This document shows positions 24,211 to 42,712 of a stretch of DNA of 64,000 nt, piece after piece (position 1 is the first letter of the stretch; every line of letters starts with the position of its first letter). This DNA is from Kaistia algarum (GTDB lineage Bacteria; Pseudomonadota; Alphaproteobacteria; Rhizobiales; Kaistiaceae). Location: contig NZ_JAPKNJ010000003.1 of assembly GCF_026343945.1 (NCBI RefSeq), positions 1 through 64,000 of the forward strand. The letters are read 5' to 3'. The notes under the pieces were generated by a model. The model was not told where the DNA came from, ran no database searches, and saw nothing but the letters and a program-made list of their open reading frames with translations. Both the position numbers and the translations under genes were made by a program.

Positions 24211-24444
24211 GATATGCAGTTATTTGCGGCGCTTCATGGGGCGCCGCGACGGCCGAAACCCTCGCTCGGGATCGTCTATCCAACGCCTTGCCTTGCGCGT
24301 TGATCGTCTGATTCGCCGGCGCATCGTCTTGAAGATGGCTCGATCGAGGTTATATTCGCCGCGGACCCGGCTGTTGCCGCCGGAGCCCTATCCTGGCCGG
24401 CCTTGCTGCCGAGTGCCAAGTCGGAAAAGGCAGAGACAGCGGCC

Positions 24445-25638
24445 ATGCTCAACAGCCTCGATCTTCCTGGACGCCCGCAGGACAACCGCGTCGTCGTCGC
24501 GATGTCGGGCGGCGTCGATTCCTCCGTGGTTGCCGGCCTGCTGAAGCGTGAGGGCTATGACGTCGTCGGCATGACGATGCAGCTCTATGATCATGGCGAG
24601 GCTACACACCGTCCCGGCGCCTGCTGCGCGGGGCAGGATATCCGTGATGCGCGCCGCGTCGCGGAGCGCCTGGGCATCCCGCATTACGTGCTCGACTATG
24701 AGGATCGCTTCCGAACCTCCGTCATGGATCGGTTCGCCGAGAGCTATATGGCCGGCGAGACGCCGATTCCCTGCGTCGCCTGCAACCAGACGGTCAAGTT
24801 CTCCGATCTGCTGGTGACGGCGCGCGAGCTCGGCGCCGCGGCGCTCGCCACCGGGCATTACGTATCGACCCGGCGCCTTTCGGACGGACGACGCGGCCTG
24901 TTCCGGCCGGCCGATCTCGCTCGCGACCAGAGCTATTTTCTCTTCGCTACGACGCCGGAGCAGCTCGGCTTCATCCGCTTCCCGCTGGGCGGACTGACCA
25001 AGCCGGAGACGCGCGATATCGCCCGCGAGCTCGGATTGGAGATCGCCGAGAAGCCCGACAGCCAGGACATCTGCTTCGTGCCGGGCGGTCGTTATTCGGA
25101 CGTCATCGCCAAGTTGAAGCCCGGCGCCGCCGAGCCCGGCGATATCGTCCATGTCGATGGCCGCGTGCTCGGCACGCATCGCGGGATCATCCACTTCACC
25201 GTCGGCCAGCGCCGTGGCATCGGCATCGCGCAGGCGGAGCCGCTCTACGTGCTGCGGCTGGACGCGGATCGCCGTCAGGTCGTTGTCGGCCCGCGCGAGG
25301 CGCTGCTTGTGCGCCGCCTGCGCCTGCGCGACGTCAACTGGCTCGGCGACGAGGCTCTTGACGCGCTGCCGGCGGAGGGCCTGCCAGTCTTTGCGCGCGT
25401 TCGCTCGACCCGCCCGCCGCAGGCCGCCAGGCTCAGCCTCGTCGAGGGCGAAGTCGCTGTAGATCTGCTGGGCGAGGAGACCGGCGTCGCGCCCGGCCAG
25501 GCCTGCGTCCTCTATGAGCATGCCGGCGAGGGCGCTCGCGTCCTCGGTGGCGGGTATATCAGGCGCAGCGAAAGGGCAGGGGAAACGGAACGCGCATCGG
25601 CGCCCACCGTTGAACCCAAGGTTATGCTGGCCATCTGA
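24445..25638 (+). CDS. mnmA: tRNA 2-thiouridine(34) synthase MnmA
   Basis: A 397-residue enzyme that puts sulfur on U34 of tRNA-Lys, -Glu and -Gln. The PP-loop is [20 protein letters not shown] near residue 16. The catalytic cysteines are in [14 protein letters not shown] near residue 110 and [12 protein letters not shown] near 210. [11 protein letters not shown] and [15 protein letters not shown] also match the family. The ATG at 24445 begins [15 protein letters not shown]; an earlier in-frame start is possible but has no homology. A methyltransferase gene starts 27 bp downstream, suggesting one transcript. Confidence 0.96.
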
Positions 25639-26448: not shown

Positions 26449-26525
26449 GGCGGGGTAGCTCAGCTGGTTAGAGCAGCGGAATCATAATCCGCGTGTCGGG
26501 GGTTCAAGTCCCTCTCCCGCTACCA
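26449..26525 (+). tRNA. tRNA-Met (CAU)
   Basis: A full cloverleaf of 77 nt including the encoded CCA (26523-26525). The acceptor stem pairs GGCGGGG with TCCCGCT (two G-U pairs). The anticodon arm is GCGGA-ATCATAA-TCCGC, giving anticodon CAT. The T-loop is TTCAAGT. Read as elongator tRNA-Met; a CAU anticodon could also belong to tRNA-Ile2 after lysidine modification, but the sequence resembles rhizobial elongator tRNA-Met as I recall it. Confidence 0.9.
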
Positions 26526-27559: not shown

Positions 27560-28012
27560 TCAATTCCCCACACCCCTGAACGTCACCATCTTATGCGCGA
27601 CGAAGTTCACGAACACCGGCAGGACGATCGCACAGCCGTGTGAAACCGCGCGGGCGAGGCCTTCGGGCAGGAAATGCGAGAAGACATACCGGTCGAAGCC
27701 GATCGCGGCGAGAATGACGACCGGGAAGGCGAGGGCGTTGAAGAGGAAGAACCAGGCCATTTCCTGATGCAGCGGCTTGCCGGAGGCCGGGAAGACGAAG
27801 ACGCGGTTCAGGAAGAAGGCGGTCAGGAAGCCGACGACATAGGCGGCGGCGACGGCAGCCCAGAAGCCCATGAAGGGCTCGAAGGCGAAGCGGCTGGCAA
27901 AATTCGCGATGGCCGCGAAGCCGCCGGCGATGAGGAACTTGCCGAATTGCCCCGTGAAATAGAGCGAGGCGAGGCGGCGGAGGCCGGTCGGGGTTGCGGA
28001 CGCGTCGCTCAT
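27560..28012 (-). CDS. GtrA-like membrane protein
   Basis: A 150-residue protein with four hydrophobic helices, typical of the GtrA family, whose members are thought to flip polyprenyl-phosphate-linked sugars across the membrane. Family features are FGKFLIAGGFAAIANFASRF near residue 23 and LNRVFVFPASGK near 68. It is the last gene of the minus-strand operon, overlapping the FAD-oxidoreductase gene by 4 bp. In Mycobacterium a GtrA protein (Rv3789) is encoded next to dprE1 and dprE2, and has been proposed to flip decaprenyl-phosphoryl-arabinose; the same pairing appears here. Confidence 0.87.
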   Translation of the reverse strand: MSDASATPTGLRRLASLYFTGQFGKFLIAGGFAAIANFASRFAFEPFMGFWAAVAAAYVVGFLTAFFLNRVFVFPASGKPLHQEMAWFFLFNALAFPVVILAAIGFDRYVFSHFLPEGLARAVSHGCAIVLPVFVNFVAHKMVTFRGVGN

Positions 28013-29325
28013 TGGAAGATCGGCTCCCGGCGCGGCTGGTGATCGGTGCCGATCGCCTTGGCCATTTCGATGGCGAGCCGCGCTCCCTCGGAAACGCCGC
28101 GGTCCTCTGGGTAATAATAGCAGGTATCGGCAATCTGGAGGCCGGCGATCTCGGTGCGGATCGGCGGGATGCGGGCCGCGAAGCCCGGCTCGCAGAGCGG
28201 CTGCGCGTGCTTCAGCCGGCCAACGGTCGACGATATCCGATCGGCATCGGTAAGCGACGGGTTGACCCGCTTCAGATAGCCGAAGCTCTCCTCGATGAAA
28301 GCCTCGTCGCTCGCCGCGAATTTCGGGTTCGTCGTCGGCATGTAATAGGGGATGTAGACCACGGTGTCGTCGACCGGGCGCAGGTTGGAGAACTCGATGA
28401 ACCCAGGGATCTGCATGGTCTCATCGACGACATTGACCCAGAAATGCGGCGTCACCGGTTTCTTCAGCTTGTGCAGCACGCAGACGACGCCAATGTTCTC
28501 GATGCTGTCATACGAGGCTTTTGTCGCGTCGGTGAAATCCGGCACGAGGCGCGAGACGTAGGGCGTCGGCACGGTGGCGATGACCGCGTCGGCTGGGATG
28601 AACTCGCCGCCAGCCACGACGCCGGTGACACGGCCATCGGCCGAGACGACATGGGTTGCGGCGCTCGCCAGCCGGATGCGCCCGCCGAGCCGCTCGATCG
28701 CGGCGACCAGCGCCTTCACCAGCGTTTCGGAACCGCCTTCGATATAGCCGAGTTCTTCCTGGAACATGGAACGGCGGGACGAGCCGACGCGCTTCACGCG
28801 TGTCGCGATCCAGGCGGCCGAGACATTGTCGGCATATTCGTAAAACTTCAGCTCCATCAGGCGGCGCCACATGCGCTCATAGACCCTGCGGCCGGCGCCC
28901 TTCTCGATCCATTCGCGCGCCGAGACGTTTTCGAGGTCGTCGAAGCTCTTGCGCTTTGTCGTCAGGAAGGCCTGCGCGCCATAGCGGATCTTGTCGACGA
29001 GACCCAAATGAGGAAAGCGGAGCAGCGAGATCGGATCGCCCCATTTGTAGAGCGCGCCTTCCGTCCAGTAGCCCATCGATGTCGGCCGCCAGCGCATCTT
29101 GTCGCCGATGCCGAGTTCGTCCAGCAGGGCGAAAGTCGGCCGGTCCGTCTTGCAGACGAAATGATAGAAGCGCTCGATCGAGAGGCCGCCAAAATCGAAA
29201 TGCGCGGCCATGCCGCCAGCGATCTTGTCGGCCTCGACGACATCGACCTCATGTCCCGCCTTCAAAGCATGGTAGGCGGTGGCAAGGCCCATGGCGCCGG
29301 CGCCGATGACGACTGTCTTGACCAT
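28009..29325 (-). CDS. FAD-dependent oxidoreductase (amine-oxidase/protoporphyrinogen-oxidase-like)
   Basis: A 438-residue flavoprotein with an N-terminal FAD dinucleotide-binding motif, VVIGAGAMGLATAYHALKAG followed by the acidic end VVEAD. The middle part (REWIEKGAGRRVYERMWRRL) and the second FAD block near the C-terminus (PEDRGVSEGARLAIEMAKAI) match the family that includes protoporphyrinogen oxidase and UDP-galactopyranose-mutase-like enzymes. The substrate is unknown. Tight packing in the dprE-type operon suggests a role in sugar or lipid-carrier chemistry, not established here. Confidence 0.8.
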   Translation of the reverse strand: MVKTVVIGAGAMGLATAYHALKAGHEVDVVEADKIAGGMAAHFDFGGLSIERFYHFVCKTDRPTFALLDELGIGDKMRWRPTSMGYWTEGALYKWGDPISLLRFPHLGLVDKIRYGAQAFLTTKRKSFDDLENVSAREWIEKGAGRRVYERMWRRLMELKFYEYADNVSAAWIATRVKRVGSSRRSMFQEELGYIEGGSETLVKALVAAIERLGGRIRLASAATHVVSADGRVTGVVAGGEFIPADAVIATVPTPYVSRLVPDFTDATKASYDSIENIGVVCVLHKLKKPVTPHFWVNVVDETMQIPGFIEFSNLRPVDDTVVYIPYYMPTTNPKFAASDEAFIEESFGYLKRVNPSLTDADRISSTVGRLKHAQPLCEPGFAARIPPIRTEIAGLQIADTCYYYPEDRGVSEGARLAIEMAKAIGTDHQPRREPIFQ

Positions 29326-29335
29326 GGTGGCCCCT

Positions 29336-30262
29336 TCAGAAGGAAAGCGTGATTTCGGCGTAGCGCTCGTCGAGGAAGGTTTCCTCTATCGCCTTGCGAA
29401 GCGGCGTTTCCGTGACGCTAAAGATACCCGGCCAATCGATCACCGGAAATGTCTCGGGAATGACGAGCGCCTCAAGCTGGCGGACGGTGAAAGGCGGATT
29501 GCTGTCGACCTTGGTGTAGGCCCAGAGCAGCACCCAGAACAGCCGGTAGGGGATGTGGACGATCCGCGCCTTGGCGTGGGTAACGTCCTTGATCAGGCGG
29601 ATCAGATCGCCATAGCCGATCGGCGTCCGGCCGGAAATGTCGTAGCTCCCGGTGATCCGCGTCTCGACCGCCGAGGCGATGATGGCGGCAAAGTCGCCGG
29701 CATAGAGCGGCTGGCGCACGAAGCGGCCATCGCCGGGAATCGGGAACACCGGCGCCTTGTCCATGAAGCGGCGCAGCCAGCCGAGATGCTTGCGGTCGAA
29801 CCAGCCGAACATCAGCGTCGGCCGGAGAACGACATGCGGGATTTCGACCGTCGCGAAGAGCTTTTCCTGCGCCGTCTTGGTGCGGGTGTAGAAATCGTCA
29901 GCGCGCGAATTCACCACCGAGGAGGATATCTGCACGATATAGCCAACGCCATGCGCCCGGGCGGTTTCGATCAGCCGTTCCGTCGCGGTGACGTTGTTGC
30001 GGACGAACTCGCTCTCGTCGAGACCGCCGATCTGCGCTTGCAGGATGATCAGCGTGTCGGTTCCGACGAGATGGTCCTGCCAGGTGCCGGCCACCGAGAG
30101 ATCCGCTTCGACGACCTCGATATCGGGATGGAGCTCGCGCAAGATCGCCGTATTCTCGCGATGCTTGTCGAAGGCGACGATGGAATAGCCGCGCGCCTTC
30201 AGCCGCGGGACGAGATTCTGGCCGACGAGACCCGCTGCACCGGTGATGGCAATTCGCTTCAT
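29336..30262 (-). CDS. NAD(P)-dependent epimerase/dehydratase family protein
   Basis: A 308-residue extended short-chain dehydrogenase. The nucleotide-binding motif is RIAITGAAGLVGQNL at the N-terminus, and the catalytic Tyr-x-x-x-Lys is in ADDFYTRTKTAQEKL near residue 120. The protein is probably a nucleotide-sugar or lipid-linked sugar modifying enzyme. The ATG at 30262 overlaps the stop of the DprE2-like gene by 4 bp. An unrelated frame runs on upstream in phase, but homology begins at this ATG. Confidence 0.85.
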   Translation of the reverse strand: MKRIAITGAAGLVGQNLVPRLKARGYSIVAFDKHRENTAILRELHPDIEVVEADLSVAGTWQDHLVGTDTLIILQAQIGGLDESEFVRNNVTATERLIETARAHGVGYIVQISSSVVNSRADDFYTRTKTAQEKLFATVEIPHVVLRPTLMFGWFDRKHLGWLRRFMDKAPVFPIPGDGRFVRQPLYAGDFAAIIASAVETRITGSYDISGRTPIGYGDLIRLIKDVTHAKARIVHIPYRLFWVLLWAYTKVDSNPPFTVRQLEALVIPETFPVIDWPGIFSVTETPLRKAIEETFLDERYAEITLSF

Positions 30263-31014
30263 AGACGGGTCTTGTGAAAGATCGGCGCGGGAACCAGGCG
30301 GATGATGAGCAGGATGAAGCGCCAGAACCATGGCGCATAGACGATGGGCCCGCTGCCCGCCGCCGCCTTGCGGATGATGGCCGCGACCTGCTCGGGCGTC
30401 GCCCAGAGCGCGCCGCCCTTCTTGAGGCCATCGGTCATCGGCGTATCGACGAAGCCCGGCTTGACGAGAACCGCGTGCAGGCTCTTGCGGCGCTTCAGGG
30501 CGAAGCGATGCGCGATGCCCTGGACCAGCACTCCGAGCCCGGCCTTGGCGGCGCCATAGACATAGTTGGATTGCCGGCCACGGTCGCCGGCGACCGAGCC
30601 AACCACGACCAGCGCGCCGCTGCCCTGCGCTTCGAGGTGCTTGGCCGCCGCGAGCGACCAGAGCGCTGCCGAGGTGAAGTCGATGTCGAGGATCTTCCGG
30701 GCTTCCGATAGATCGCGTTCTGCCTCCGCCTGGTCGCCGAGTACGCCGTAGAAGAGCAGGACATGGTCGATGCCGCCGAGGTCGGCGACGACGCCATCGA
30801 AGGCTGCCTCGATGCCTTCCATTTCCGCCAGATCGCGGGCGAGGATCGACGTGGCGCGGGCACCGCGTGCCGACAGGTCTGCCGCGATCGTCGCGAGCCG
30901 TGTGGGGTCGCGCCCGGCGAGCGCTATGGCGGCGCCTTCGACTGCATAGAGCCGCGCGGTGGCCTCGGCCATGGCGGATGTCGCGCCGAGGATGAGTATG
31001 CGGAGGGTCTTCAT
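30259..31014 (-). CDS. DprE2-like short-chain dehydrogenase (2-keto-pentose reductase)
   Basis: A 251-residue SDR. It has the motif LRILILGATSAMAEATARLY at the N-terminus and the catalytic YVYGAAKAG near residue 150. The atypical GATSxMAEAxARxYA motif is characteristic of DprE2, the enzyme that reduces the 2-keto intermediate left by DprE1 to give polyprenyl-phosphoryl-arabinose. A hydrophobic, basic C-terminus (FWRFILLIIRLVPAPIFHKT) suggests membrane contact. It is sandwiched between the DprE1-like gene (5 bp away) and the epimerase gene (4-bp overlap). Confidence 0.85.
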   Translation of the reverse strand: MKTLRILILGATSAMAEATARLYAVEGAAIALAGRDPTRLATIAADLSARGARATSILARDLAEMEGIEAAFDGVVADLGGIDHVLLFYGVLGDQAEAERDLSEARKILDIDFTSAALWSLAAAKHLEAQGSGALVVVGSVAGDRGRQSNYVYGAAKAGLGVLVQGIAHRFALKRRKSLHAVLVKPGFVDTPMTDGLKKGGALWATPEQVAAIIRKAAAGSGPIVYAPWFWRFILLIIRLVPAPIFHKTRL

Positions 31015-31019
31015 GTCCG

Positions 31020-32354
31020 TCACGGGGCGACGCGCCTCCAGAATGCCGAAGAGAAATGCGGATCGACGTGGGGGGTGAATTCCGCCAGGCGAGGATAGCC
31101 GTTTTGGAACAGGCGTGCACTCATTCGCCCATCCTTGGCCGGGTAGAGGCGGCCACCGGCGGCGAGTACGATTTCGTCCAGTCGCGCCATCAGGGCGAGT
31201 GTCTCCGTGCCGCGATTGCGGAAATCCAGCGCCAGCGTGGTGCCCTCGCGCGGGAAGGAGAGCATTCCCGGCGATGCGCGGTCGCCAAAGGTCTTCAGCA
31301 CCGCGAGGAACGAGCCCTCGCCGCTGGCCGCGATGGTCTGCAGGAGTTCCGCGATCACGGGCAAAGAATCGGTTGGCGGGACGACGCATTGATATTGATA
31401 CATGCCGGGCCGACCATAGAGCCGGTTCCAGTTCATGATGCTGTCCAGCGGGAAGAAGAACGGCGCGTAATGGGTGAGGCTCCTCCCCGCCCGCCAGCGG
31501 CCGAGGCGGAAATAGAGATCGTTGAAGAGGCGCAGGCTCAGCGGGTTCAGCGCAAAGCTCGGGAATTCGATCGGAATGCCGGCCTTCGGCTTGGCCGGAT
31601 GGGGCAGGCGGGCCGGGTCGCGGCTCCAATTGCCGCGCGAGAACAGCCCGCGCATGGCTGTGCCTTCAACGCGGGTGCAATCGATCCAGGAGACGGTGAA
31701 TTCGTGGCTCGCAATGCTCTCGTCGGAGAGCGCGAAGAACTCTTCCAGCGAATGGAAGGGAACCGTCTCGCCGTCGATCGACGATCCGTCGATGCGGGTG
31801 AGTTCGAGTTCGACCCATTCTACGAGGCCGGTGAGTCCGAGGCCGCCGATCGTTGCGGCGAAGAGGCCGGTCGAATCGTCCGGGCCGAGTTCATGCAGGC
31901 TGCCGTCCGAACGACGGAGGCCGAGCTTGCGGACGTGATTACCGAAGGAGCCGGACCTGTGGTGGTTCTTGCCATGCACATCGTTGCCCACGGCACCGCC
32001 GAGCGTGACGAAGCGCGTGCCCGGTACGACGGCCGGAAACAGGCGATGCGGCAAGGTCGTGCGGATCAACGCGTCGAGCGATAGTCCCGCATCGGCGCGC
32101 AGAACGCCGCTCCGTGGATCGAAGGCGTGGATGCGGTCGAGCGCCGTCATGTCGACTACAGCGCCACCAGGATTAAGATTGCTGTCGCCATAGGAACGCA
32201 TCAGCCCGACGGCGAGGAGCGGTGTGCTGCCCCTCACCGCCTCGCCGACGAGCGGCGGGACCTCGTCGGGGAAATGCGGCTTCGCCACCTTCTGCGTCGG
32301 CCGCGTGACCCGTCCCCAGGATTGTCGCCGATCGGTCGAGATGAATCCGCTCAT
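31020..32354 (-). CDS. DprE1-like FAD-dependent oxidase
   Basis: A 444-residue flavoprotein matching DprE1, which oxidises the 2-hydroxyl of polyprenyl-phosphoryl-ribose in the first step of its epimerisation to arabinose. The FAD-binding signature VGNDVHGKNHHRSGSFGNHV is at residues 122-141, with His132 at the place where mycobacterial DprE1 binds FAD covalently. The C-terminal YPAKDGR places Lys407 where the catalytic Lys418 lies. Where benzothiazinones attack Cys387 in M. tuberculosis, this protein appears to have Ala375 (my alignment from memory). The start codon directly abuts the stop of the HAD-UbiA gene. Confidence 0.88.
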   Translation of the reverse strand: MSGFISTDRRQSWGRVTRPTQKVAKPHFPDEVPPLVGEAVRGSTPLLAVGLMRSYGDSNLNPGGAVVDMTALDRIHAFDPRSGVLRADAGLSLDALIRTTLPHRLFPAVVPGTRFVTLGGAVGNDVHGKNHHRSGSFGNHVRKLGLRRSDGSLHELGPDDSTGLFAATIGGLGLTGLVEWVELELTRIDGSSIDGETVPFHSLEEFFALSDESIASHEFTVSWIDCTRVEGTAMRGLFSRGNWSRDPARLPHPAKPKAGIPIEFPSFALNPLSLRLFNDLYFRLGRWRAGRSLTHYAPFFFPLDSIMNWNRLYGRPGMYQYQCVVPPTDSLPVIAELLQTIAASGEGSFLAVLKTFGDRASPGMLSFPREGTTLALDFRNRGTETLALMARLDEIVLAAGGRLYPAKDGRMSARLFQNGYPRLAEFTPHVDPHFSSAFWRRVAP

Positions 32355-33824
32355 TCAGACGGCCAGCAGGAAAGCGACGACGACCACGAGACCGAGACCG
32401 AGGCTCAGCCTGTCTTTGAGCGCGAAGATGACGGGGTCGTCTGTCATGAAGCCGCGATGGGAAAGCAGCCATACCCGGCTGATCCAGAGAAAGATGACGG
32501 CGGGTACCGCCCAGAGCCAGTTCGCGTTTGAATAGACGTCGCGGGAGAAGACTTCCGCCATCAGGAACTGGACCATGATCAGGATGGACGCAATGGCCGA
32601 AGCCACGCCGAAGGCCAGCGTCACCTCGCGATCCTCGACATGATAGCCGCGTCCGCCAATCTTTCCGGTGGTCCGTTCGCCGGCCCGGAGGATTTCGGTG
32701 TGCCGCTTGGCGATCGCCAGCGAGAAGAAAAAGAACATCGAGAAGGTAAGCAGCCAGGGCGACGGCTCGAGAGCAGCGGCTTCAGTACCGATCAGCAGGC
32801 GCAAGGAGAACAGCGCCGCGATGATGAAAGTGTCGAGGATGGCGACGCGCTTCAGGCCGAAGGAATAAGCGAGCGTGATGACAACATAGGCGAGCAGGCC
32901 GAGGCCGACCCCGGGCGACACGAACGCACCAAGGATGAGTAGCAGCGGAATGCCGAGGGCCGCCGCGATCATGCCGTCGCGAACCGGGATGCGGCCTGAG
33001 GCAAAGGGTCGATTGCGCTTCGACCAGTGACGCCGGTCGGCGCCGAGATCGGCAATGTCGTTGACGCAGTATGTCAGTGAAGCAACGGCACAGAGCAGCA
33101 GCGCCGCGATCAGCGTCGACACCAGGTTCGTCATACCGATCTGCGTCCAACCTAGGGCCGGCGGGATGAAGACCAGGGCGTTTTTGGCCCATTGGTGCGG
33201 CCGAAGCGCCTTCCACCAGGCGGCGATCTTGTCGGAAGGCTCGGGGAATATCCGCTCGATCGGCGTCCCCAGAGCGTTCACCTTCTTCGGCAATCCGTCG
33301 CCCCGATCGACGATGAGCGCAGCCTTCGCCGCAGCCCAGACCGGCAGGTCGGTCGTACTGTCACCGACATAGGCATATCCATCCGGAAAATGCTCGGCGA
33401 GGCGGGCGGCCTTGCTCGATCCCTTCAGATTCCGCGTCCCATCGCTCGCGTCAAAACCATCAAAAAGCTGGTACTCCTCGACGACACGCGCCGCGATGCG
33501 CCGGTTCGCGGCCGTAGCGAGATGAATGTGTCGTCCCTTGCCGCGTTCCTGGCGGATGAACTCCACCAGATCCTCGCGGACCGGCATGATCTCCGCGTCG
33601 GGCACGGCAATGTCCGACAAAGCGGTCTTGAATCGCGCGATTCCCAGCGGCAACTTGCTAAAAGCTGCAAAAGCCCGCCACGGCTGGCTGAAGACCGCCA
33701 GTGCGAAGGTTTCGTATAGCGTGTCGACCTTGAGGAATGTCCCGTCCATGTCAACGACCAGGGGCCAAGAGCGCTCCGCGGTTGTTGATTCCAGACGGTC
33801 CATATCGGGTTCTAGACGGTCCAT
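32355..33824 (-). CDS. HAD phosphatase-UbiA prenyltransferase fusion (probable polyprenyl-phosphate pentose synthase)
   Basis: A 489-residue two-domain protein. Residues ~20-190 form a HAD phosphatase (DMDGTF with Asp25 and Asp27; GDSTTDLP near 154-161). Residues ~205-489 form a UbiA-family membrane transferase: RPHQWAKNALVF near 208, then NDIADLGADRRHWSKRNRPF at 255-274 with the Asp-rich motif. The UbiA half resembles 5-phosphoribosyl-1-diphosphate:polyprenyl-phosphate transferases (mycobacterial Rv3806c). The HAD half could remove the 5-phosphate that follows. The first 14 codons contain a 7-codon duplication (MDRLEPD, MDRLEST), so a start at 33803 is also possible. First gene of the six-gene operon. 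Confidence 0.88.
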   Translation of the reverse strand: MDRLEPDMDRLESTTAERSWPLVVDMDGTFLKVDTLYETFALAVFSQPWRAFAAFSKLPLGIARFKTALSDIAVPDAEIMPVREDLVEFIRQERGKGRHIHLATAANRRIAARVVEEYQLFDGFDASDGTRNLKGSSKAARLAEHFPDGYAYVGDSTTDLPVWAAAKAALIVDRGDGLPKKVNALGTPIERIFPEPSDKIAAWWKALRPHQWAKNALVFIPPALGWTQIGMTNLVSTLIAALLLCAVASLTYCVNDIADLGADRRHWSKRNRPFASGRIPVRDGMIAAALGIPLLLILGAFVSPGVGLGLLAYVVITLAYSFGLKRVAILDTFIIAALFSLRLLIGTEAAALEPSPWLLTFSMFFFFSLAIAKRHTEILRAGERTTGKIGGRGYHVEDREVTLAFGVASAIASILIMVQFLMAEVFSRDVYSNANWLWAVPAVIFLWISRVWLLSHRGFMTDDPVIFALKDRLSLGLGLVVVVAFLLAV

Positions 33825-34033
33825 GTCTGCCTGCTGCTGCGTGTAACGCTCTCTATGTCAGGCCGATGCAACAAGCAATTGTCGATTCCGGACACGGCGG
33901 AAAGAACGCGGCACTTGCGACCCTTCTGGCGTTTCGACTTCACAGGGTGCTTCTTCCTAGGTCACCGCTCTTGCCAAGATGGGCAAAGCGTCCCTTTATC
34001 CCGGCCTCAGCACCAAGAACGGAACCGCCGTCA

Positions 34034-35572
34034 ATGCAACTTGCGATGCCCTCATCTCTTGCTCGGCCGCTGGTATTTGTGCTGGCGGCCTTGGTGCTGG
34101 CTCTCGTCGCCTATGACGTCTATTGGCTGGTCATCGGTCTTGACCAACCTATTCTGGGGAGCCATGCGTTCCGCCAGACGCAGACCGCTATCTCGGCATA
34201 TTGGCTCAAGCAGGGCGGTCCCCTCTTCGCTTATGAGACTCCGGTCGTCGGTGCGCCCTGGTCGATCCCGTTCGAGTTTCCTCTCTATCAGTGGTTGGTC
34301 GCGCTGCTGTCTTTGACCGGCCTTTCGATCGAGGTCTCGGGTCGTCTGATCGCGTTTGGCTTCTTCCTGGGCTGCCTCTGGCCGATGCGCATGCTGTGCC
34401 GGCAATACAAGCTGCCGGATACGACGTTCCTCTTCGCGGCCGCGCTCTTTCTGGCTTCGCCGATCTACACGTTCTGGTCCCGAACGTTGATGATCGAGAC
34501 GACGGCACTCTTCTTCGCGATGGTGTGGCTGGCGCTTTTCGCCAGAGCTCTCGACCGACAGTCCGTGCTGGTGGGCATCGCGACGTTTGTTTGCGGCACG
34601 GGTTCGGTTCTTGCGAAATCGACGACGTTTCCGGCATTCGTCGTGTGCGCTTTCTGTCTCTTTGTCGCGCGTGTCTGGCCGTTGGTAACTCGGCGTAAAT
34701 GGCGCCATGCGATCGGTCTCAGCCTCCTTGCGGGAATCGTCACGCTTGGGCCGTTGGCAGTCGGAAGCTATTGGGTTCACTTCTCCGACATCGTCAAGCT
34801 ACGTAGCCCGGGCGGTACGTTGCTAACGTCTTCCGCCTTGACCGATTGGAATTTTGGCGCCTGGGACGCGCGCTTCTCCGCCAAGCTCTGGGTAGAGACT
34901 ATTGGCAACCGCGTCGCCAACGATTCTTTCGGAAAGCTGGCCGTTGTAGCGCTGATCCTCACGCTCTTTGCCCTGACCCAGCGGCGCTACGTCCTGCCGA
35001 CGTTAATTTGCCTGCTCGGCTTCCTGACGCCGTTCCTGCTTTTTACCAACCTCCACACGACGCACAATTACTATCAGGTCGCCAATGTGGTCTTCGCCAT
35101 CGGGGCCTGCGCGCTTGGGATCCAGGCCCTGTTTGATCGCGCATGGATTGCTGGAATTGCGGTGCTGGTCCTCGTGCTGGCCTCGCAGATCAGTTTCTTC
35201 GGGCAAACTTTCGGGAAGGAGGTGGTGGAGGATTTTACGACCAATGAGGTCTACCAGATCGGCCAGATCATCCAGCAGAAGACGCCTGATAACTCTGTGA
35301 TCGTGGTCTTCGGTCAGGACTGGTCTTCCGCTGTCCCTTATGAAGGCAAGCGTCGCGGTGTCGTCCTGGCAACTTGGTTCCCGCGGACGATGTTCGAGGC
35401 TCTGGTCCAGCAGCCAGACGCGTTGCTTGGCAGTCTGTCGCTTGGCGGCATCGTTGATTGCGGCACCAACGGCTACGACGATGTCATGGATCTAGTCGGA
35501 CCCTATCTCGCCGGTCGCTCGGTTCTTGGCGAGGCCGGAAAATGCCGGCTTCTGTCGCCCGTCAAGCCTTGA
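34034..35572 (+). CDS. Probable GT-C type membrane glycosyltransferase
   Basis: A 512-residue inner-membrane protein with about ten or eleven hydrophobic segments and a C-terminal periplasmic-looking tail from about residue 400. The motif LGSHAFRQTQTAISAYWLKQ near residue 41 follows the first helix and resembles the first loop of GT-C enzymes such as ArnT, which take sugars from polyprenyl-phosphate donors. It is divergent from the HAD-UbiA operon (209 bp apart), which fits use of the donor made there. Start at ATG 34034; the frame is open to 33737, but earlier codons overlap the divergent gene. The acceptor is unknown. Confidence 0.75.
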   Translation: MQLAMPSSLARPLVFVLAALVLALVAYDVYWLVIGLDQPILGSHAFRQTQTAISAYWLKQGGPLFAYETPVVGAPWSIPFEFPLYQWLVALLSLTGLSIEVSGRLIAFGFFLGCLWPMRMLCRQYKLPDTTFLFAAALFLASPIYTFWSRTLMIETTALFFAMVWLALFARALDRQSVLVGIATFVCGTGSVLAKSTTFPAFVVCAFCLFVARVWPLVTRRKWRHAIGLSLLAGIVTLGPLAVGSYWVHFSDIVKLRSPGGTLLTSSALTDWNFGAWDARFSAKLWVETIGNRVANDSFGKLAVVALILTLFALTQRRYVLPTLICLLGFLTPFLLFTNLHTTHNYYQVANVVFAIGACALGIQALFDRAWIAGIAVLVLVLASQISFFGQTFGKEVVEDFTTNEVYQIGQIIQQKTPDNSVIVVFGQDWSSAVPYEGKRRGVVLATWFPRTMFEALVQQPDALLGSLSLGGIVDCGTNGYDDVMDLVGPYLAGRSVLGEAGKCRLLSPVKP

Positions 35573-35594
35573 CTCGCGGCGGAGCGGAAGAGGC

Positions 35595-37904
35595 GTGAGC
35601 AAATCATGGAGCTATTCAGCTTTGGCGGCGGATACGGCGCGGTCTAGGATTTTTCGGCTCGGGATCTGGGGCCTTGTCGTGGTTGCGCTTGCCTGGGCGG
35701 CGGCTGGTCTTTGGACGGGGCTCAGTTCATCCGGTGCGCCCCGTGCGTTGGTCATGGCCGATGGCTGGACAGCGACTGGCGATTTTGCCGAGACAGCGGG
35801 CATGTCCAACGAGCAATCCATCCCATCCGCTTTCTTCCTCGATCCCAACTTTCGCTTCTGGCAGGCGATCGGCGACAAGGCCAAGCCGGCACGAGGCACC
35901 GTCGTATCCGCATCTTTCGCGGCGCCCGGCTTTCTCGCCGTTCCTTATGCCGGGTTTCCCGACGAGGTGATCGGAAATCGGATCGCAATCCAGTGTGTGG
36001 CTTCGGGAGACGAGTTTCCCGTGTCACGGTTCCGGATGAACGATCAGCGCGCCACCAGTTTTGTCCAATTGCCCGGAGAGTTCTGCTCGGGTCCCGTGCG
36101 GGTCGTTGCCTCCATTGATGGCAGTGAGTTCATCTCCGTGGGAACGCCTTTTGCGATCTCGGAAGCGATGTATGTAGGGCAGACCGGGATACACTCCCGC
36201 GCCATGGTTGTCGCTGCAACATGGGCGATGGGGCTCATCATCTGGTTCCTGTCGGCATTCGCCGTTTCGCGCGGTTCAACCCAAATCGGAGCGGTCACAT
36301 CAGGGATGGTGGGGACCGCTGTCGTCGGTATGGTGTTGATTGCTGCCTTCACGATCGGGCCCGTGTCGGGAAAGGCGGTGGTCTCCACCCTGGCTGTCGC
36401 GGCTCTGGTCGGCGCAGCGCTCGTCTCCTGGAAATGGCGGGACTGGTCGATCGGCTGGCTGCGGAATGTCGCCCTCCCGGCCTCGCTTTGGCTCTTGTTC
36501 GCGTTGTTTGCCGCCGGCCTCGTCACCGCAGCCGACAATGGCAGTGGCGCGTGGTGGATCAATTCGCTCTTCACTCCGCTTCGATGGTCTTCGGACAATC
36601 AGATTCCCTATCAGTTCGCAGAGGCTCTTGTTACCGGCACGCCTCCGTCCGATATCCACTGGGGCCCCTGGCTGGCGACCGATCGCACGCCGCTGCTGAG
36701 CGGATTTCTCCTCGCAGCGCGCGTATTGATAATCACGCCTTTCCAGCGCAGCTTCGGACCGACCTTTATCCCGATCGCCTACATGATGAGTTCGATCGTG
36801 TTCTTGACGGCCTGGGTCGCCGTCTTGGTAGAGATTGTGCGCAGGGCCGATGTAAAGGCCTTGGCGGTCGTCGTACTTCTGGCCTGCACGACCCCCTTCC
36901 TGCTGTTCAATTCCGTCTATGCTTGGCCGAAACTGCTTGGCGCGGCCTATGTGCTGATCGCGTTTGGCCTGCTTATGGACCTGTCGGTTCGCCGCTCGCG
37001 CAATCCGATCGCTCTCTATCTGGTCGCTCTCGCCGCCGTGAGTGCAATACTGGCCCATTCGAGCAACGCTTTTGCGCTCTTCCCGATCGCGCTTCTGTTT
37101 GCGCCAACGCTACTGCGTCAAGGGATTGTGCCCCTGTTCTGCGCTGCGCTCGCCGCGATACTCGTGACGTTGCCATGGCTCTATTGGCAGGCCATTCTGC
37201 AGCCTGGAGGGAATGCCCTTCTGCGCTTCGCTCTCGCCTTCGACTATGAAGCGGGCAACCGCAGCCGTCCGCTGCTTTCGGCCATTCGTGATGCCTATTC
37301 GTCCATGACGTTCAATGGCTGGCTGGCTGGGAAACGGTCCTCCGCGGCACTTATGCTCGGGTTGGAGGCGCCTGATTTCGGAATGCCGGAAATGGCGGCG
37401 CATTCCGCCGGGGCAGGGCCGCTCGGGGCGGCCCGCGTCCTCGACTTTCTTTCTGTCGGCCACGCGCTATCCATCGCTGGCCTGGGTCTGCTGGCGGTCC
37501 CGTTCCTCTCGCACTTTGCCCGCACGGGATTTGCGGCCTCTTCCATGGCGCGGATGGCAGCGCTCGCCGGTGTGACCGGTGTGCTGCTCGGTCTCCTTGT
37601 CATGCTCCCGCCGGGGATCGTGCACCACCAGCCTTATGGCTCGCTGCTGCTCCTTGTTTTGGCGGGAGCACTTGCTATTGCCGCTGCGCCGGCCTGGCTC
37701 ACGGCGAGCGCGACAGTACTGTCGGTTGGCTATTTCGCGGTTGTCTGGGTCTGGCATCCCATTGCTACGGCGGTCACCGTCCATGGATCCGCCATCGCGC
37801 TCATGGTCTGGTCGGCCGCGGGGATCGGCTGGCTGCTCTTCATGTGGCCGAGAGATGACGACGCGGTCCTCCGCGGCTCCAGCGTGGAGGCCAAAGAAGC
37901 ATAG
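35595..37904 (+). CDS. Large multi-spanning membrane protein of unknown function
   Basis: A 769-residue protein with one N-terminal membrane helix (residues ~15-38), a periplasmic domain (~40-205), and then about twelve or more hydrophobic segments. The periplasmic domain contains FRFWQAIGDKAKPARGTVVS, QLPGEFCSGPVRVVASIDG and two cysteine-bearing strands. No catalytic motif is clear, but the layout resembles polysaccharide-modifying or GT-C-like membrane enzymes. The start is GTG at 35595 after GGAAGAGG; the gene begins 23 bp after the previous gene, so they are likely one transcript. A role in the same envelope glycan pathway is inference. Confidence 0.65.
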   Translation: MSKSWSYSALAADTARSRIFRLGIWGLVVVALAWAAAGLWTGLSSSGAPRALVMADGWTATGDFAETAGMSNEQSIPSAFFLDPNFRFWQAIGDKAKPARGTVVSASFAAPGFLAVPYAGFPDEVIGNRIAIQCVASGDEFPVSRFRMNDQRATSFVQLPGEFCSGPVRVVASIDGSEFISVGTPFAISEAMYVGQTGIHSRAMVVAATWAMGLIIWFLSAFAVSRGSTQIGAVTSGMVGTAVVGMVLIAAFTIGPVSGKAVVSTLAVAALVGAALVSWKWRDWSIGWLRNVALPASLWLLFALFAAGLVTAADNGSGAWWINSLFTPLRWSSDNQIPYQFAEALVTGTPPSDIHWGPWLATDRTPLLSGFLLAARVLIITPFQRSFGPTFIPIAYMMSSIVFLTAWVAVLVEIVRRADVKALAVVVLLACTTPFLLFNSVYAWPKLLGAAYVLIAFGLLMDLSVRRSRNPIALYLVALAAVSAILAHSSNAFALFPIALLFAPTLLRQGIVPLFCAALAAILVTLPWLYWQAILQPGGNALLRFALAFDYEAGNRSRPLLSAIRDAYSSMTFNGWLAGKRSSAALMLGLEAPDFGMPEMAAHSAGAGPLGAARVLDFLSVGHALSIAGLGLLAVPFLSHFARTGFAASSMARMAALAGVTGVLLGLLVMLPPGIVHHQPYGSLLLLVLAGALAIAAAPAWLTASATVLSVGYFAVVWVWHPIATAVTVHGSAIALMVWSAAGIGWLLFMWPRDDDAVLRGSSVEAKEA

Positions 37905-38616: not shown

Positions 38617-39384
38617 TCAGCCTTTCCAGGAGCCAAGATGCCGGCCGAGACGATCGAAGGCGAGGTCGGTGACGATGGCGAGCAGGGCGACGACGAGTGC
38701 GCCCTGCAGCACATAGGCCGTGTTGAAGCCGGAGAGGCCGACGATGATCGGCAGGCCGAGCGTCTTCGCGCCGACCGTCGAGGCGATCGCCGCCGTTCCG
38801 ATGTTAATGATGACAGAGGTTCGCACGCCCGACAGGACGACCGGCGCTGCCAGAGGCAGCTCGACGCCGAACAGGATGCCTCGCTTTGTCATCCCGATGC
38901 CGCGTGCTGCTTCGCGCACGCTAGCGGGAACGGATTCGATGCCGGCGACGGTCGCCTCGGTGATCGGCAGCAGTCCGTAAAGCGCCAGTGCGATCAGCGC
39001 CGGCGCCGGCCCGAAGCCGAGGAGGGGAACCGCGACAGCGAGGACCGCGACGGGCGGAAAGGTCTGTCCCATGGCGACCACGGTCTCAAGCAGCGGCCGA
39101 AACTCGCGCCCGGACCGGCGCGTGACGAAGATCCCGCCCGCAACGCCGACCAAGGTCGCGGCGGCGCTGGAGATGGCGACGAGGCCGATATGAGCGAGGG
39201 TCAGGCTCCAGAAGCTGTCCTGCTCGAAAAGCGGTCGCTCCTGTCCAGGGAAGAGCGCCGCGAACACCGGCTTCAGCCACGGCATGCCGAAGACGAGCGC
39301 GACCAGTGCGAGGAATGCGACTACCAGCGGATCGATCGCGAACGGGCGCCGGGCTGGCGCTGGATCGGCAGGGGCAAGGCTCAT
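38617..39384 (-). CDS. yehW: Osmoprotectant ABC transporter permease (YehW-like)
   Basis: A 255-residue permease of the glycine-betaine/choline importer family. The ATPase-contact segment is [20 protein letters not shown] near residue 155, and [20 protein letters not shown] precedes it. It is the shorter of the two permeases, as YehW is in E. coli. Its start overlaps the ATPase gene by 4 bp. It is the last gene of the operon, and the E. coli homologues import osmoprotectants with low affinity. Confidence 0.88.
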
Positions 39385-40313
39385 GATCGCGGCACCGCGA
39401 GGTCGGCGAGATGCAGGACGCCGAGCGGCCTGCCGTCGGGACCGACCACCCCCAGCTTGTCGACGCCGCGCGACACCAGCAGCGACAGCGCCTGGCGCAG
39501 GCTCGTGGACGCCGCGACCGGCTCGCCCGGCGCCGTCTCCCCGGGGCGCAGGCGCTCGGCGACGGTCTCGATGGCCAGCAGCTTGATGCCGATGTCTTCG
39601 CGGCCCACGAAATCGGCGACAAAATCGTTGGCTGGCCGGGTCAGGATCTCGCGCGGGGTTCCGGTCTGCGCAATCCGGCCGCCTTCGAGAATTACGATGC
39701 GCGAGGCCAGCCGCACCGCCTCGTCCATGTCGTGCGTGACGAGGACGATGGTCGTTCCCGATCCCGCGTGGATGCGGAGCATTTCGGCCTGCAGCGTATC
39801 GCGGGTCACCGGATCGAGCGCGCCGAACGGCTCGTCCATCAGGAGGATCTGAGGGTCAGCTGCCAGCGCCCGTGCCACGCCGACGCGCTGCTGCTGACCG
39901 CCCGATAGGTGGTGCGGATAGCGGGCGCGATAGGTTTCGGGGTCGAGGCCGAGGAGGGTGAGGAGTTCGGTGACGCGGTCGCGGATACGCGCCTTTGGCC
40001 ATTTCAGCAGCTTCGGCACCGTCGCGATATTCTCCTCCACCGTCCGGTGCGGAAAGAGGCCGATGGACTGAATGGCGTAGCCCATGCGGCGGCGCAGTTC
40101 CTCGATCCGGAACGACCGGATCTCTTCGCCGGCGAAGAGGATGCGGCCGCGGTCGTGCTCGATCAGGCGGTTGATCATCTTCAGCGTCGTCGTCTTGCCG
40201 GAGCCGGACGGGCCGATCAGCACGCAGAACTCGCCGGCCTCGATCTTGAGAGAAAGATCGTCGACGGCGGCAAACTCGCCATAATGCTTGCCGACATGTT
40301 CGAACTCGATCAT
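39381..40313 (-). CDS. yehX: Osmoprotectant ABC transporter ATP-binding protein (YehX-like)
   Basis: A 310-residue ATPase. It has Walker [18 protein letters not shown] near residue 36, the signature [16 protein letters not shown] near 137, and Walker [15 protein letters not shown] near 155. The C-terminal part (from about residue 255) is a CBS-like regulatory segment, common in the OpuCA/ProV group and thought to sense ionic strength. It overlaps both neighbouring permease genes by 4 bp and so is translationally coupled to them. Confidence 0.92.
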
Positions 40314-41518
40314 GCGGCGTTCCTCCTCATCATCGATATGGCGAGCTTCAGCAGGACATCGGCGGCAACGGCGAGCGCGACCAGCGGCACGACGCCGAGC
40401 AGCACCAGATCGAGAGCGCTCGCCGCGAGGCCCTGAAAGATGATGGCGCCGAGGCCGCCGGCGCCGATGAGGGCGGCGACCGCCGTCATGCCGACCGCCT
40501 GGACTACCGTGACGCGCAGCCCCGCCAGCAGCACGGGCAAAGCGAGCGGCGCCTGGACGCTGCGGAAAATCTGGCCGCGCGTCATGCCCATTCCAGTGGC
40601 GGCATCGACGGCGGAAACGGGAACCTGTTCGAGCCCCGCCGCGGTACTCCGCGCGATCGGCAGCAGCGAATAAAGCGTCAGCGCGATGATCGCCGGGGTC
40701 GCACCAATGCCGGAAATGCCGAGCGCTCCCAGCGCTGGGGCGATCGCGACGAGGCCGGAGAGCGGCGCGATCAGCAGGCCGAAGAGGGCGATGGAGGGGA
40801 TCGTCTGGATGACGTTCAAGACGGCGAAGAGCGGGCCTCGCAGGCGGGCGCTCCGAAAGGCGGCGATGCCGAGCGGGATGCCGATGAGAAGCGTCGGAAC
40901 AAGCGTCGCGCCCACGATCTGGATGTGGCGGAGGACCGCCTCGGCGAAGACTTCGCGGCGATTGGCATATTCCTTGAGGATGGAAAGGCTGTCGGCGCCG
41001 CCCAAGAAAAGCACGGCGAGCGTCGGCAGCGTCAGCGCCAGGCCGGCCGCGAGCCTTGCGGCGGGAGAAAGACCCAGGCGCTGCATCGCGTCGGCCGCGA
41101 TCAGGACAGTCGCCGCCTCCAGGATCCAGAACGCGCCGCCGAAGGAGGTTCGCGCCGCTGGCGCAGCCGGATCGAACAGCCGAAGCGCGGCGTCGCCGGC
41201 AAGCCAGAGCAAGGAGGCCGCGAGGATCGCGGCCGCAAGCGCCACGGCGAGGTGAAGCCCGCGTCGTCCCGGCATGAAGATGCCGACGAGGATCACCACC
41301 GCCGGAGCGAAGGCGACGATACGGCCGCCCTCAATGATGACGCCCCACGGCACGGGCTGGCCGGAGAGGAGCCGATTGGGCGAACGCGACAGGAAGTCGA
41401 GCGCAACGGCTCCGATGAGGCCGATGGCGACGAGGAGGAGACGGACCCGGTTCAGCCGCGGCTCCGCCTCGCCCTGATCACCTTCGACTTCGCCAGCCGG
41501 CTCCGATGCGGATCGCAT
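40310..41518 (-). CDS. yehY: Osmoprotectant ABC transporter permease (YehY-like)
   Basis: A 402-residue permease. The N-terminal ~170 residues carry extra hydrophobic helices, as in E. coli YehY (385 residues), followed by a permease core with the ATPase-contact loop DAATGMGMTRGQIFRSVQAP near residue 305. IQIVGATLVPTLLIGIPLGI is also typical. It lies between the binding-protein and ATPase genes, 13 bp after the former and overlapping the latter by 4 bp. Confidence 0.9.
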   Translation of the reverse strand: MRSASEPAGEVEGDQGEAEPRLNRVRLLLVAIGLIGAVALDFLSRSPNRLLSGQPVPWGVIIEGGRIVAFAPAVVILVGIFMPGRRGLHLAVALAAAILAASLLWLAGDAALRLFDPAAPAARTSFGGAFWILEAATVLIAADAMQRLGLSPAARLAAGLALTLPTLAVLFLGGADSLSILKEYANRREVFAEAVLRHIQIVGATLVPTLLIGIPLGIAAFRSARLRGPLFAVLNVIQTIPSIALFGLLIAPLSGLVAIAPALGALGISGIGATPAIIALTLYSLLPIARSTAAGLEQVPVSAVDAATGMGMTRGQIFRSVQAPLALPVLLAGLRVTVVQAVGMTAVAALIGAGGLGAIIFQGLAASALDLVLLGVVPLVALAVAADVLLKLAISMMRRNAA

Positions 41519-41531
41519 CGAACCCTACCGC

Positions 41532-42473
41532 CTATTTCAGCAATCCCTTCGACTTCAGATAGTCCGTCGCGACCTGCTTCGGATCGAGGCCGTCGACCGC
41601 AATCTTGGCGTTGAGGCTCTGCAGCGCCGGGCCGTCCAGCGTCTGGAAGACGGGCGCCAGAAGGTCGGCGATCTGCGGATAGTCCTTCAGCACGGCCTCA
41701 CGAATGATCGGCGCGGGCGCATAGACTGGTTGGACGCCCTTGTCGTCGGCGAGCGCAATGAGGCCGAGCGCGGCGAGCGCACCATCCGTGCCATAAGCGA
41801 GAGAGCCGTTGACGCCCGAGGTCTGCTCGGCGGCCGCCTTGATGAAGGTCGTGGTGTCACCGCCGGCCAGCGTCACGATCTGGTCGGATCCGAGCTTGAA
41901 TCCATAAGCTGTCTGGAAGGCCGGCAGGGCAGCAGGGCTTTCGACGAACTCCGCCGAAGCTGCCATCTTGAAGGTGCCGCCCCCATTGATCCAGGTCGCG
42001 AACTGCTCCAGCGACGCCAGCTGGTTGGCGTCGGCCACGTCCTTGCGGATGGCGATCACCCAGGTGTTGTCGGCCGGGGCGGGCGTCAGCCAGACAATCT
42101 TGTTGGCGTCGAAGTCGAGCTGCTTGACCTTCTCGTAGCCTTCTTTCGCATTCTTCCAGACCGGATCGCTGTCGACCGAGAAGAAGAAGGCGCCATTGCC
42201 CGTATATTCGGGATAGATGTCGATCTCGCCGGCCGTGATCGCGCCGCGCACGATCTTGGTATTGCCGAGCGACACCTTGTTCACCGTCGGGATGCCGTTC
42301 GCATCGAGCACGGCGATAATGATGTTGCCGAGAAGCGACCCCTCGGTATCGATCTTGGAGCCGACTTTGACGGGTTCGGCTGCGAAAGTCGCGGAAGGAA
42401 TGGCCAGCGGTAGCCCGGCGGCCAGCGTGATCGCGGCCGCGAGGAGCGTGCGGCGGCTGATGAAGGGGGACAT
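41532..42473 (-). CDS. osmF: Osmoprotectant-binding protein OsmF/YehZ-like
   Basis: A 313-residue periplasmic binding protein of the OpuAC/OsmF family. The twin-arginine-containing N-terminus MSPFISRRTLLAAAITLAAG is a signal peptide ending near TFAA. Mature features include VKVGSKIDTEGSLLGNIIIA and GEIDIYPEYTGNGAFFF, the standard ligand-site block. The start at 42473 is preceded by TGGAGAC; an upstream start at 42557 would hide the signal peptide. It is the first gene of the importer operon; 239 bp of non-coding sequence separate it from the cysteine hydrolase. Confidence 0.92.
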   Translation of the reverse strand: MSPFISRRTLLAAAITLAAGLPLAIPSATFAAEPVKVGSKIDTEGSLLGNIIIAVLDANGIPTVNKVSLGNTKIVRGAITAGEIDIYPEYTGNGAFFFSVDSDPVWKNAKEGYEKVKQLDFDANKIVWLTPAPADNTWVIAIRKDVADANQLASLEQFATWINGGGTFKMAASAEFVESPAALPAFQTAYGFKLGSDQIVTLAGGDTTTFIKAAAEQTSGVNGSLAYGTDGALAALGLIALADDKGVQPVYAPAPIIREAVLKDYPQIADLLAPVFQTLDGPALQSLNAKIAVDGLDPKQVATDYLKSKGLLK

Positions 42474-42712
42474 CGCGTTGTCTCCAGTGGGGGCGGCGAA
42501 AGCCGCGTCGGATGACGGTACGGGGTTGCAACGCCTGAGGACCGGCAGGCGATCCATTGTCTAAGTTTAACCTGACGGAGGGATGAAATCATCGGTCGAT
42601 AGGCGAACGTTCGTGCTTTGTTCCTTAAACGATTAGAATGATTTTCCGTATCCGTGCGGAGCTAGGAACATCATTCCCGAACGGTGTCAGTGGCCTTTGC
42701 CGGGGATGCCCG

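Follow-up and report, generated by a model that had tools for sequence, protein, structure and literature searches.

The 64,000-nucleotide stretch of Kaistia DNA analysed here (the window; Hyphomicrobiales, on a contig of a 5.26-Mb assembly) carries a minus-strand cassette of six genes, at 27560-33824, that probably makes a cytoplasmic lipid-linked pentose donor; this donor would be altered by two auxiliary enzymes, flipped, and transferred to a surface glycan. The genes are transcribed in the order HAD-UbiA (a phosphatase-transferase fusion), DprE1-like, DprE2-like, EPI (an extended short-chain dehydrogenase/reductase (SDR) epimerase), FAD (a flavin oxidoreductase of the PRK07233 family) and GtrA. 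Neighbouring genes overlap or lie no more than 10 bases apart: HAD-UbiA and DprE1 abut (32355/32354), DprE1 and DprE2 are 5 bases apart, DprE2 and EPI overlap by 4 bases (30259/30262), EPI and FAD are 10 bases apart, and FAD and GtrA overlap by 4 bases (28009/28012). A sequence-only reading of the window had described six packed genes with these domains, and the positions and the Pfam and NCBIfam matches confirm that description. EPI and FAD recur together with the DprE route, so that both probably extend it; the donor may then derive from lipid-linked arabinofuranose and could be the C3 epimer of that sugar, lyxofuranose.

The HAD-UbiA protein scored 545 bits against NCBIfam PRK08238 (cut-off 351), with Pfam matches to UbiA (PF01040, 77.2 bits) and HAD (PF12710, 32.2 bits). 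Its UbiA half (residues 194-480) matches the DPPRS structure 8j8j (1.1e-26), as expected of a DPPRS-type UbiA protein. In translation the HAD portion contains DMDGT and the UbiA portion NDIADLGAD, corresponding to residues D18, N247, D248, D251 and D255 of ORF15 that were tested in PMC11127046; the protein has the fusion of a UbiA NDxxDxxxD motif to a HAD PRP domain with DxDGT that marks the three-component systems. The DprE1-like protein matches FAD_binding_4 (PF01565, 62.9 bits), and its best solved relative is DprE1 (4aut, 1.2e-76), with the GKNHH and AKD regions aligned; the DprE1 family NF053785 is its best NCBIfam family, at 361 bits against a cut-off of 500. Where the mycobacterial enzyme has the cysteine of its CVDFP stretch, the aligned residue here is alanine. 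The best solved relative of the DprE2-like protein is DprE2 (21gq_C, 1.8e-28; next molecule 7.9e-19), and it scored 163.8 bits against NF053786 (cut-off 250) and higher, 256.9 bits, against PRK07102 (cut-off 267). Because neither protein reaches the curated cut-off for DprE1 or DprE2, the two are, by sequence, relatives rather than curated members of the mycobacterial enzymes. Epimerase (PF01370) matches in the cluster reached 72-75 bits. The earlier comparison with mycobacterial arabinan enzymes is upheld by these solved relatives, and best matches of the DprE1, DprE2 and UbiA proteins to unrelated families, the outcome named as speaking against it, did not occur.

The core of the cassette is not itself new, being a variant of published three-component pentofuranose systems and of mycobacterial decaprenylphosphoryl-arabinose synthesis. 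HAD-UbiA three-component systems with sugar-diversifying epimerases were published in 2024 (PMC11127046) and had been overlooked in the sequence-only reading. As described in that paper, a HAD-UbiA enzyme, ORF15, was shown biochemically to make polyprenyl-phosphate-ribofuranose from phosphoribosyl pyrophosphate (PRPP), a single SDR, ORF13, determines xylofuranose, and DprE1/E2 homologues accompany arabinofuranose glycans; more elaborate systems with several candidate epimerases are described from Xanthomonas and Bacillus. Like ORF12-15 of Citrobacter youngae O1/O2 as presented there, the window encodes a HAD-UbiA fusion, a flippase candidate, candidate GT-C-like transferases and a candidate auxiliary epimerase that would set the pentose. 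Unlike them, it has GtrA as the flippase candidate rather than a MATE protein (Pfam found no MATE domain among the eight cluster proteins), and it combines DprE1/E2 with an extra epimerase and the PRK07233 flavoprotein, for which the available text of PMC11127046 names no counterpart. As candidate auxiliary epimerases, EPI and DprE1/E2 have catalytic motifs or solved relatives. The C. youngae system has a GT136 GT-C transferase; the transferase candidates of the window are GT-C-like by hydropathy only.

The mycobacterial pathway (Rv3806c, Rv3807c, DprE1, DprE2 and Rv3789) likewise has a UbiA phosphoribosyltransferase, a DprE1/DprE2 pair and a small flippase candidate nearby; in the window, by contrast, a HAD domain fused to UbiA is the predicted 5'-phosphatase, EPI and FAD are added, and the GT-C candidate has no PDB match. 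In the sequence-only reading Rv3789 was taken to be a GtrA protein; in PMC11127046 it is classed as an SMR-family protein. The parallel that had been drawn with Azorhizobium is in print: noeC, noeH and noeO were proposed, from similarity to mycobacterial proteins, to make the D-arabinose precursor (PMC2443382). The noeCHOP system for Nod-factor arabinosylation would share mycobacterial-type arabinose-precursor genes with the window, whereas EPI, FAD and GtrA go unmentioned for it in the available text of that paper. Neither the EPI-FAD pair nor the six-gene cassette was recognised in the literature searched, and the supplement of PMC11127046, which lay outside that search, may include the pair.

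EPI has no close curated family, its best NCBIfam match being 53 bits against a cut-off of 367.65. It looks catalytic because the glycine motif, the serine and YxxxK are kept: G8, G11, Ser113-115, Tyr125 and Lys129 are invariant in an alignment of 20 sequences, each at least 65% identical to EPI. Its AlphaFold2 model is of moderate confidence (pLDDT 83.8, from an alignment of 20 close relatives; low stretch 151-157). FAD scored 506 bits against NF005560 (PRK07233; cut-off 252), a family described as hypothetical protein, and 100.5 bits against Amino_oxidase (PF01593). Its structure model, also of moderate confidence (pLDDT 84.6, 22 close relatives; low stretches 37-41, 186-188 and 405-411), places it in the phytoene desaturase / protoporphyrinogen oxidase fold class.

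Searching genome contigs with EPI yielded at least 508 confirmed relatives among at least 587 stretches, and the best 80 loci were kept. With presence taken as a tblastn match of at least 60 bits, these contained FAD (78 loci), DprE2 (63), DprE1 (61), HAD-UbiA (61) and GtrA (56), and FAD lay within 1.8 kb of EPI in 77. The complete six-gene set was present in 50 loci, and the window's order on a single strand in 37, where other genes may intervene; EPI, FAD and GtrA came first in another seven. Since the PRK08238 and PRK07233 scores exceed their cut-offs and the order recurs in 37 of the 80 loci, the cluster is not a chance finding.

Co-occurrence was then tallied in 200 Pseudomonadota genomes, the window's own included, at E-value cut-offs of 1e-50 (EPI), 1e-60 (FAD and HAD-UbiA) and 1e-40 (DprE1). 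EPI was found in 5, FAD in 6, HAD-UbiA in 24 and DprE1 in 31, and all five EPI genomes had DprE1, HAD-UbiA and FAD (EPI-DprE1 association, Fisher p 6.7e-5, or 4.3e-4 excluding the window's genome); one genome (G155) had FAD without EPI, HAD-UbiA or DprE1. Nineteen of the 80 loci have no DprE1 next to EPI. Thirteen of the corresponding genomes were searched (L007, L013, L025, L040, L074 and L081 being left out), and all 13 encode DprE1 and HAD-UbiA; two loci without local DprE1 (L030 and L080) have HAD-UbiA at the locus itself. Among 80 genomes of an acidobacterial order, EPI occurred in 5 and DprE1 in 47; all five EPI genomes have DprE1, which is not significant (p 0.07). Across 58 loci, EPI pairwise distances correlated with those of FAD (0.82), HAD-UbiA (0.81), DprE2 (0.78) and DprE1 (0.76), values reached in none of 2000 permutations and to which shared host descent contributes. 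This co-occurrence with DprE1 and HAD-UbiA makes it probable that EPI and FAD are an extension of the DprE route. The suggestion in the sequence-only reading that the two extra oxidoreductases alter the sugar is thereby strengthened, though not proved. DprE1 relatives are also common beyond Actinobacteria in general (31/200 and 47/80 in the two genome sets).

A lipid-phosphate-hexose carrier was also considered, having been suggested by an acidobacterial locus (L033) with a DPMS-type GT2-GtrA gene about 4 kb from EPI; as a general reading it was rejected, since DprE1 and HAD-UbiA are encoded in every one of the 13 genomes searched among those without local DprE1.

The donor could instead be plain polyprenyl-phosphate-D-arabinofuranose, with EPI and FAD, as operon mates only, making a different sugar such as a nucleotide sugar for the same glycan. 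In mycobacteria DprE1 and DprE2 are sufficient for arabinofuranose (PMC11127046), EPI falls in the NDP-sugar epimerase superfamily, and 26 of the 31 Pseudomonadota genomes with DprE1 have no EPI match at E 1e-50. Nevertheless, we consider this explanation unlikely: EPI and FAD sit between DprE2 and GtrA, overlapping or nearly touching their neighbours in the window and keeping that order in 37 of 80 loci, and every tested EPI genome has DprE1, which a role in a backbone sugar does not require.

The fold of FAD raises the further possibility that this enzyme acts on the lipid, reducing or desaturating its polyprenyl chain close to the phosphate to give a special carrier, EPI being an alcohol/aldehyde partner or a separate sugar epimerase. 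Its closest folds are phytoene desaturase and kin, and the hydroxysqualene dehydroxylase HpnE is its second NCBIfam match, at 99 bits far below the cut-off of 283. Among 14 control genomes, the FAD family was matched in Haloferax volcanii and Methanosarcina acetivorans, which use dolichyl-type carriers, and not in Corynebacterium glutamicum; it also occurs without DprE1 in G155. A pair tailoring the lipid should, however, also accompany other polyprenyl-phosphate-sugar systems, whereas the tested EPI genomes always have DprE1, and the fold class is broad, the match list also containing amine oxidases and UDP-galactopyranose mutase; lipid tailoring appears improbable. Slightly less probable again is that FAD acts like UDP-galactopyranose mutase and converts the ring of a lipid-linked pentose from furanose to pyranose once its stereochemistry has been fixed by EPI. 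Although that enzyme is among the structural matches, phytoene desaturase and protoporphyrinogen oxidases rank above it, and no UDP-galactopyranose mutase domain appeared among 18 Pfam rows up to E 10 (HMMER filters drop most matches above about 0.1). Membership of FAD in the mutase family itself was rejected on this sequence-domain test.

In the model that we infer for the reactions, the lipid, the flippase and the acceptor, HAD-UbiA would convert PRPP to polyprenyl-phosphate-ribofuranose, DprE1 would oxidise C2, and DprE2 would reduce C2 to give polyprenyl-phosphate-arabinofuranose, which EPI and FAD would modify further. GtrA would present the donor on the outer face, and one or both of the divergently encoded GT-C-like proteins would attach the sugar to the surface glycan. 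As both kinds of epimerising enzyme are present, the simplest interpretation is that C2 is set by DprE1/E2 and that their product is then altered by EPI, either alone or together with FAD. The first choice for EPI would be C3 epimerisation, by analogy to C. youngae ORF13, which on an arabino substrate would yield lyxofuranose; candidate reactions for FAD are mutase-like, oxidation or deoxygenation. More tentatively, and at somewhat less than an even chance, the pair may turn polyprenyl-phosphate-arabinofuranose into a pentose new as a bacterial lipid-linked donor, either D-lyxofuranose (ribose with C2 and C3 inverted) or a ring-changed, oxidised or deoxy form. Lyxofuranose needs both inversions and, according to PMC11127046, is absent from solved carbohydrate structures.

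The sequence-only reading had proposed a check of synteny in other Hyphomicrobiales. The order does recur, and the gene set spreads far past the alphaproteobacteria, which that reading had missed: the full set occurs in Alpha-, Beta- and Gammaproteobacteria. In Acidobacteria, FAD and EPI stand alone at the locus, and a Nostoc contig end carries DprE2, EPI and FAD. In one genome (G038) a GT-C-like gene lies between DprE2 and EPI. Seven plasmid records matched EPI (E 1e-50); the same seven and one more matched FAD (E 1e-40), the additional record being from Embleya, with the region unannotated. Four of the seven EPI plasmids were inspected, and all four have the six genes in order by annotation; one plasmid is typed conjugative.

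Several individual loci are unusual. On a Burkholderia stagnalis plasmid (L219) the cassette comes after genes whose products are annotated as isonitrile synthase, nucleotide-sugar-binding protein, hypothetical protein and methyltransferase, a setting that would fit a role in a secondary metabolite. A record filed as Streptomyces sp. AcH 505 (L029) encodes six cassette proteins 35-61% identical to those of the window (52-61% excluding GtrA) in a layout resembling that of Rhodopseudomonas, which indicates transfer or contamination. By eye, a Polynucleobacter locus appears to encode, immediately before EPI-FAD, a flavoprotein together with a small protein whose start is twin-arginine-like (L061:8118-9889). 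Among phage records, one of 6.6 kb matched the UbiA half at 27%.

GtrA is the predicted flippase for the lipid-linked sugar. A relative (34% identical) adjoins HAD-UbiA in a genome without a DprE1 or EPI match (G095), an arrangement that weakly supports GtrA in the place of the MATE flippase. At that locus (L149) HAD-UbiA also has a multi-transmembrane neighbour, and in another genome without a DprE1 match (L150, G019) it lies near a small SMR-like membrane protein and a GT-C-like protein, neighbours in both cases being assigned by eye; the two are possible ribofuranose systems with non-MATE flippases. A third (L151:7958-8713; G129, 75% complete) has a DprE2-like SDR after HAD-UbiA and no DprE1 match in the genome. 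An ORF13-like extended SDR was not found at these three loci by a weak motif scan of open frames, which also missed the DprE2-like SDR that tblastn detected in G129 and so is not evidence of absence.

The divergent plus-strand genes, from about 34034 to 37904, were predicted in the earlier reading as two membrane-protein genes. Both products are multi-transmembrane and look GT-C-like by simple hydropathy, which makes them candidate transferases; the start of the first, however, is probably 34034 and not 33737, since the Kaistia hirudinis frame begins there in the alignment. That protein has 8 hydrophobic stretches and no Pfam or PDB match, and FRQxQ and PWxxPxEFPxYQ are invariant in 10 aligned sequences. 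The second has 15 hydrophobic stretches, about 150 residues separating the first two, a DUF6541 match of 21.4 bits, below the cut-off of 29, and S355, D357, W382, D386 and R387 invariant across 6 sequences. Homologues of the first and second were present in 12 and 5 of the best 80 loci.

Table 1. Genes of the cassette and the divergent pair, by position in the window.
Feature	Position	Strand	Length (aa)	Assignment
GtrA-family small membrane protein	27560..28012	-	150	PF04138, 50.4 bits
FAD, PRK07233-family flavin oxidoreductase	28009..29325	-	438	NF005560
EPI, extended SDR epimerase	29336..30262	-	308	PF01370
DprE2-like SDR	30259..31014	-	251	PDB 21gq_C
DprE1-like FAD oxidase	31020..32354	-	444	NF053785, PDB 4aut
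HAD phosphatase-UbiA fusion	32355..33824	-	489	predicted polyprenyl-phosphate phosphoribosyltransferase and 5'-phosphatase
GT-C-like membrane protein	34034..35572	+	512	candidate transferase
Second multi-transmembrane protein	35595..37904	+		candidate GT-C; start uncertain, 35595 or 35526 (open frame from 35526)

The cluster is flanked on one side by tRNA-Met (26449-26525) and a tRNA thiolase-type gene (24403-25638), and on the other by glycine-betaine-type ABC transporter genes (38617-42557). Only 2 of 14 Kaistia genomes carry EPI. In one without it (G316) both flanks are kept, about 13 kb apart, with different genes between them, so that the contents of the slot vary; another genome (G309) likewise has different genes there. 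The segment 26449-38400 is thus a variable slot between tRNA-Met and the betaine ABC operon. No polysaccharide or nod gene was recognised among the 10 flanking open reading frames scanned, and the tRNA was the sole Rfam match in 20000-44000. A scan for sigma-70-like promoters gave 0 sites against 2.6 in shuffles, and terminator-like sites showed no excess (12 against 10.8).

The role of EPI and FAD bears on a remark made in PMC11127046, namely why no lyxofuranose is known and what the extra epimerases do. If the donor is not plain arabinofuranose, a surface sugar not yet described is made by this cassette, which is found in alpha-, beta- and gammaproteobacteria and whose genes are present but separated in the Acidobacteria searched; EPI and PRK07233, families without a named function, would then acquire a substrate. 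If EPI and FAD do make an unknown pentose donor, the cassette would be a transferable, cross-phylum pathway to a sugar that glycobiology has overlooked.

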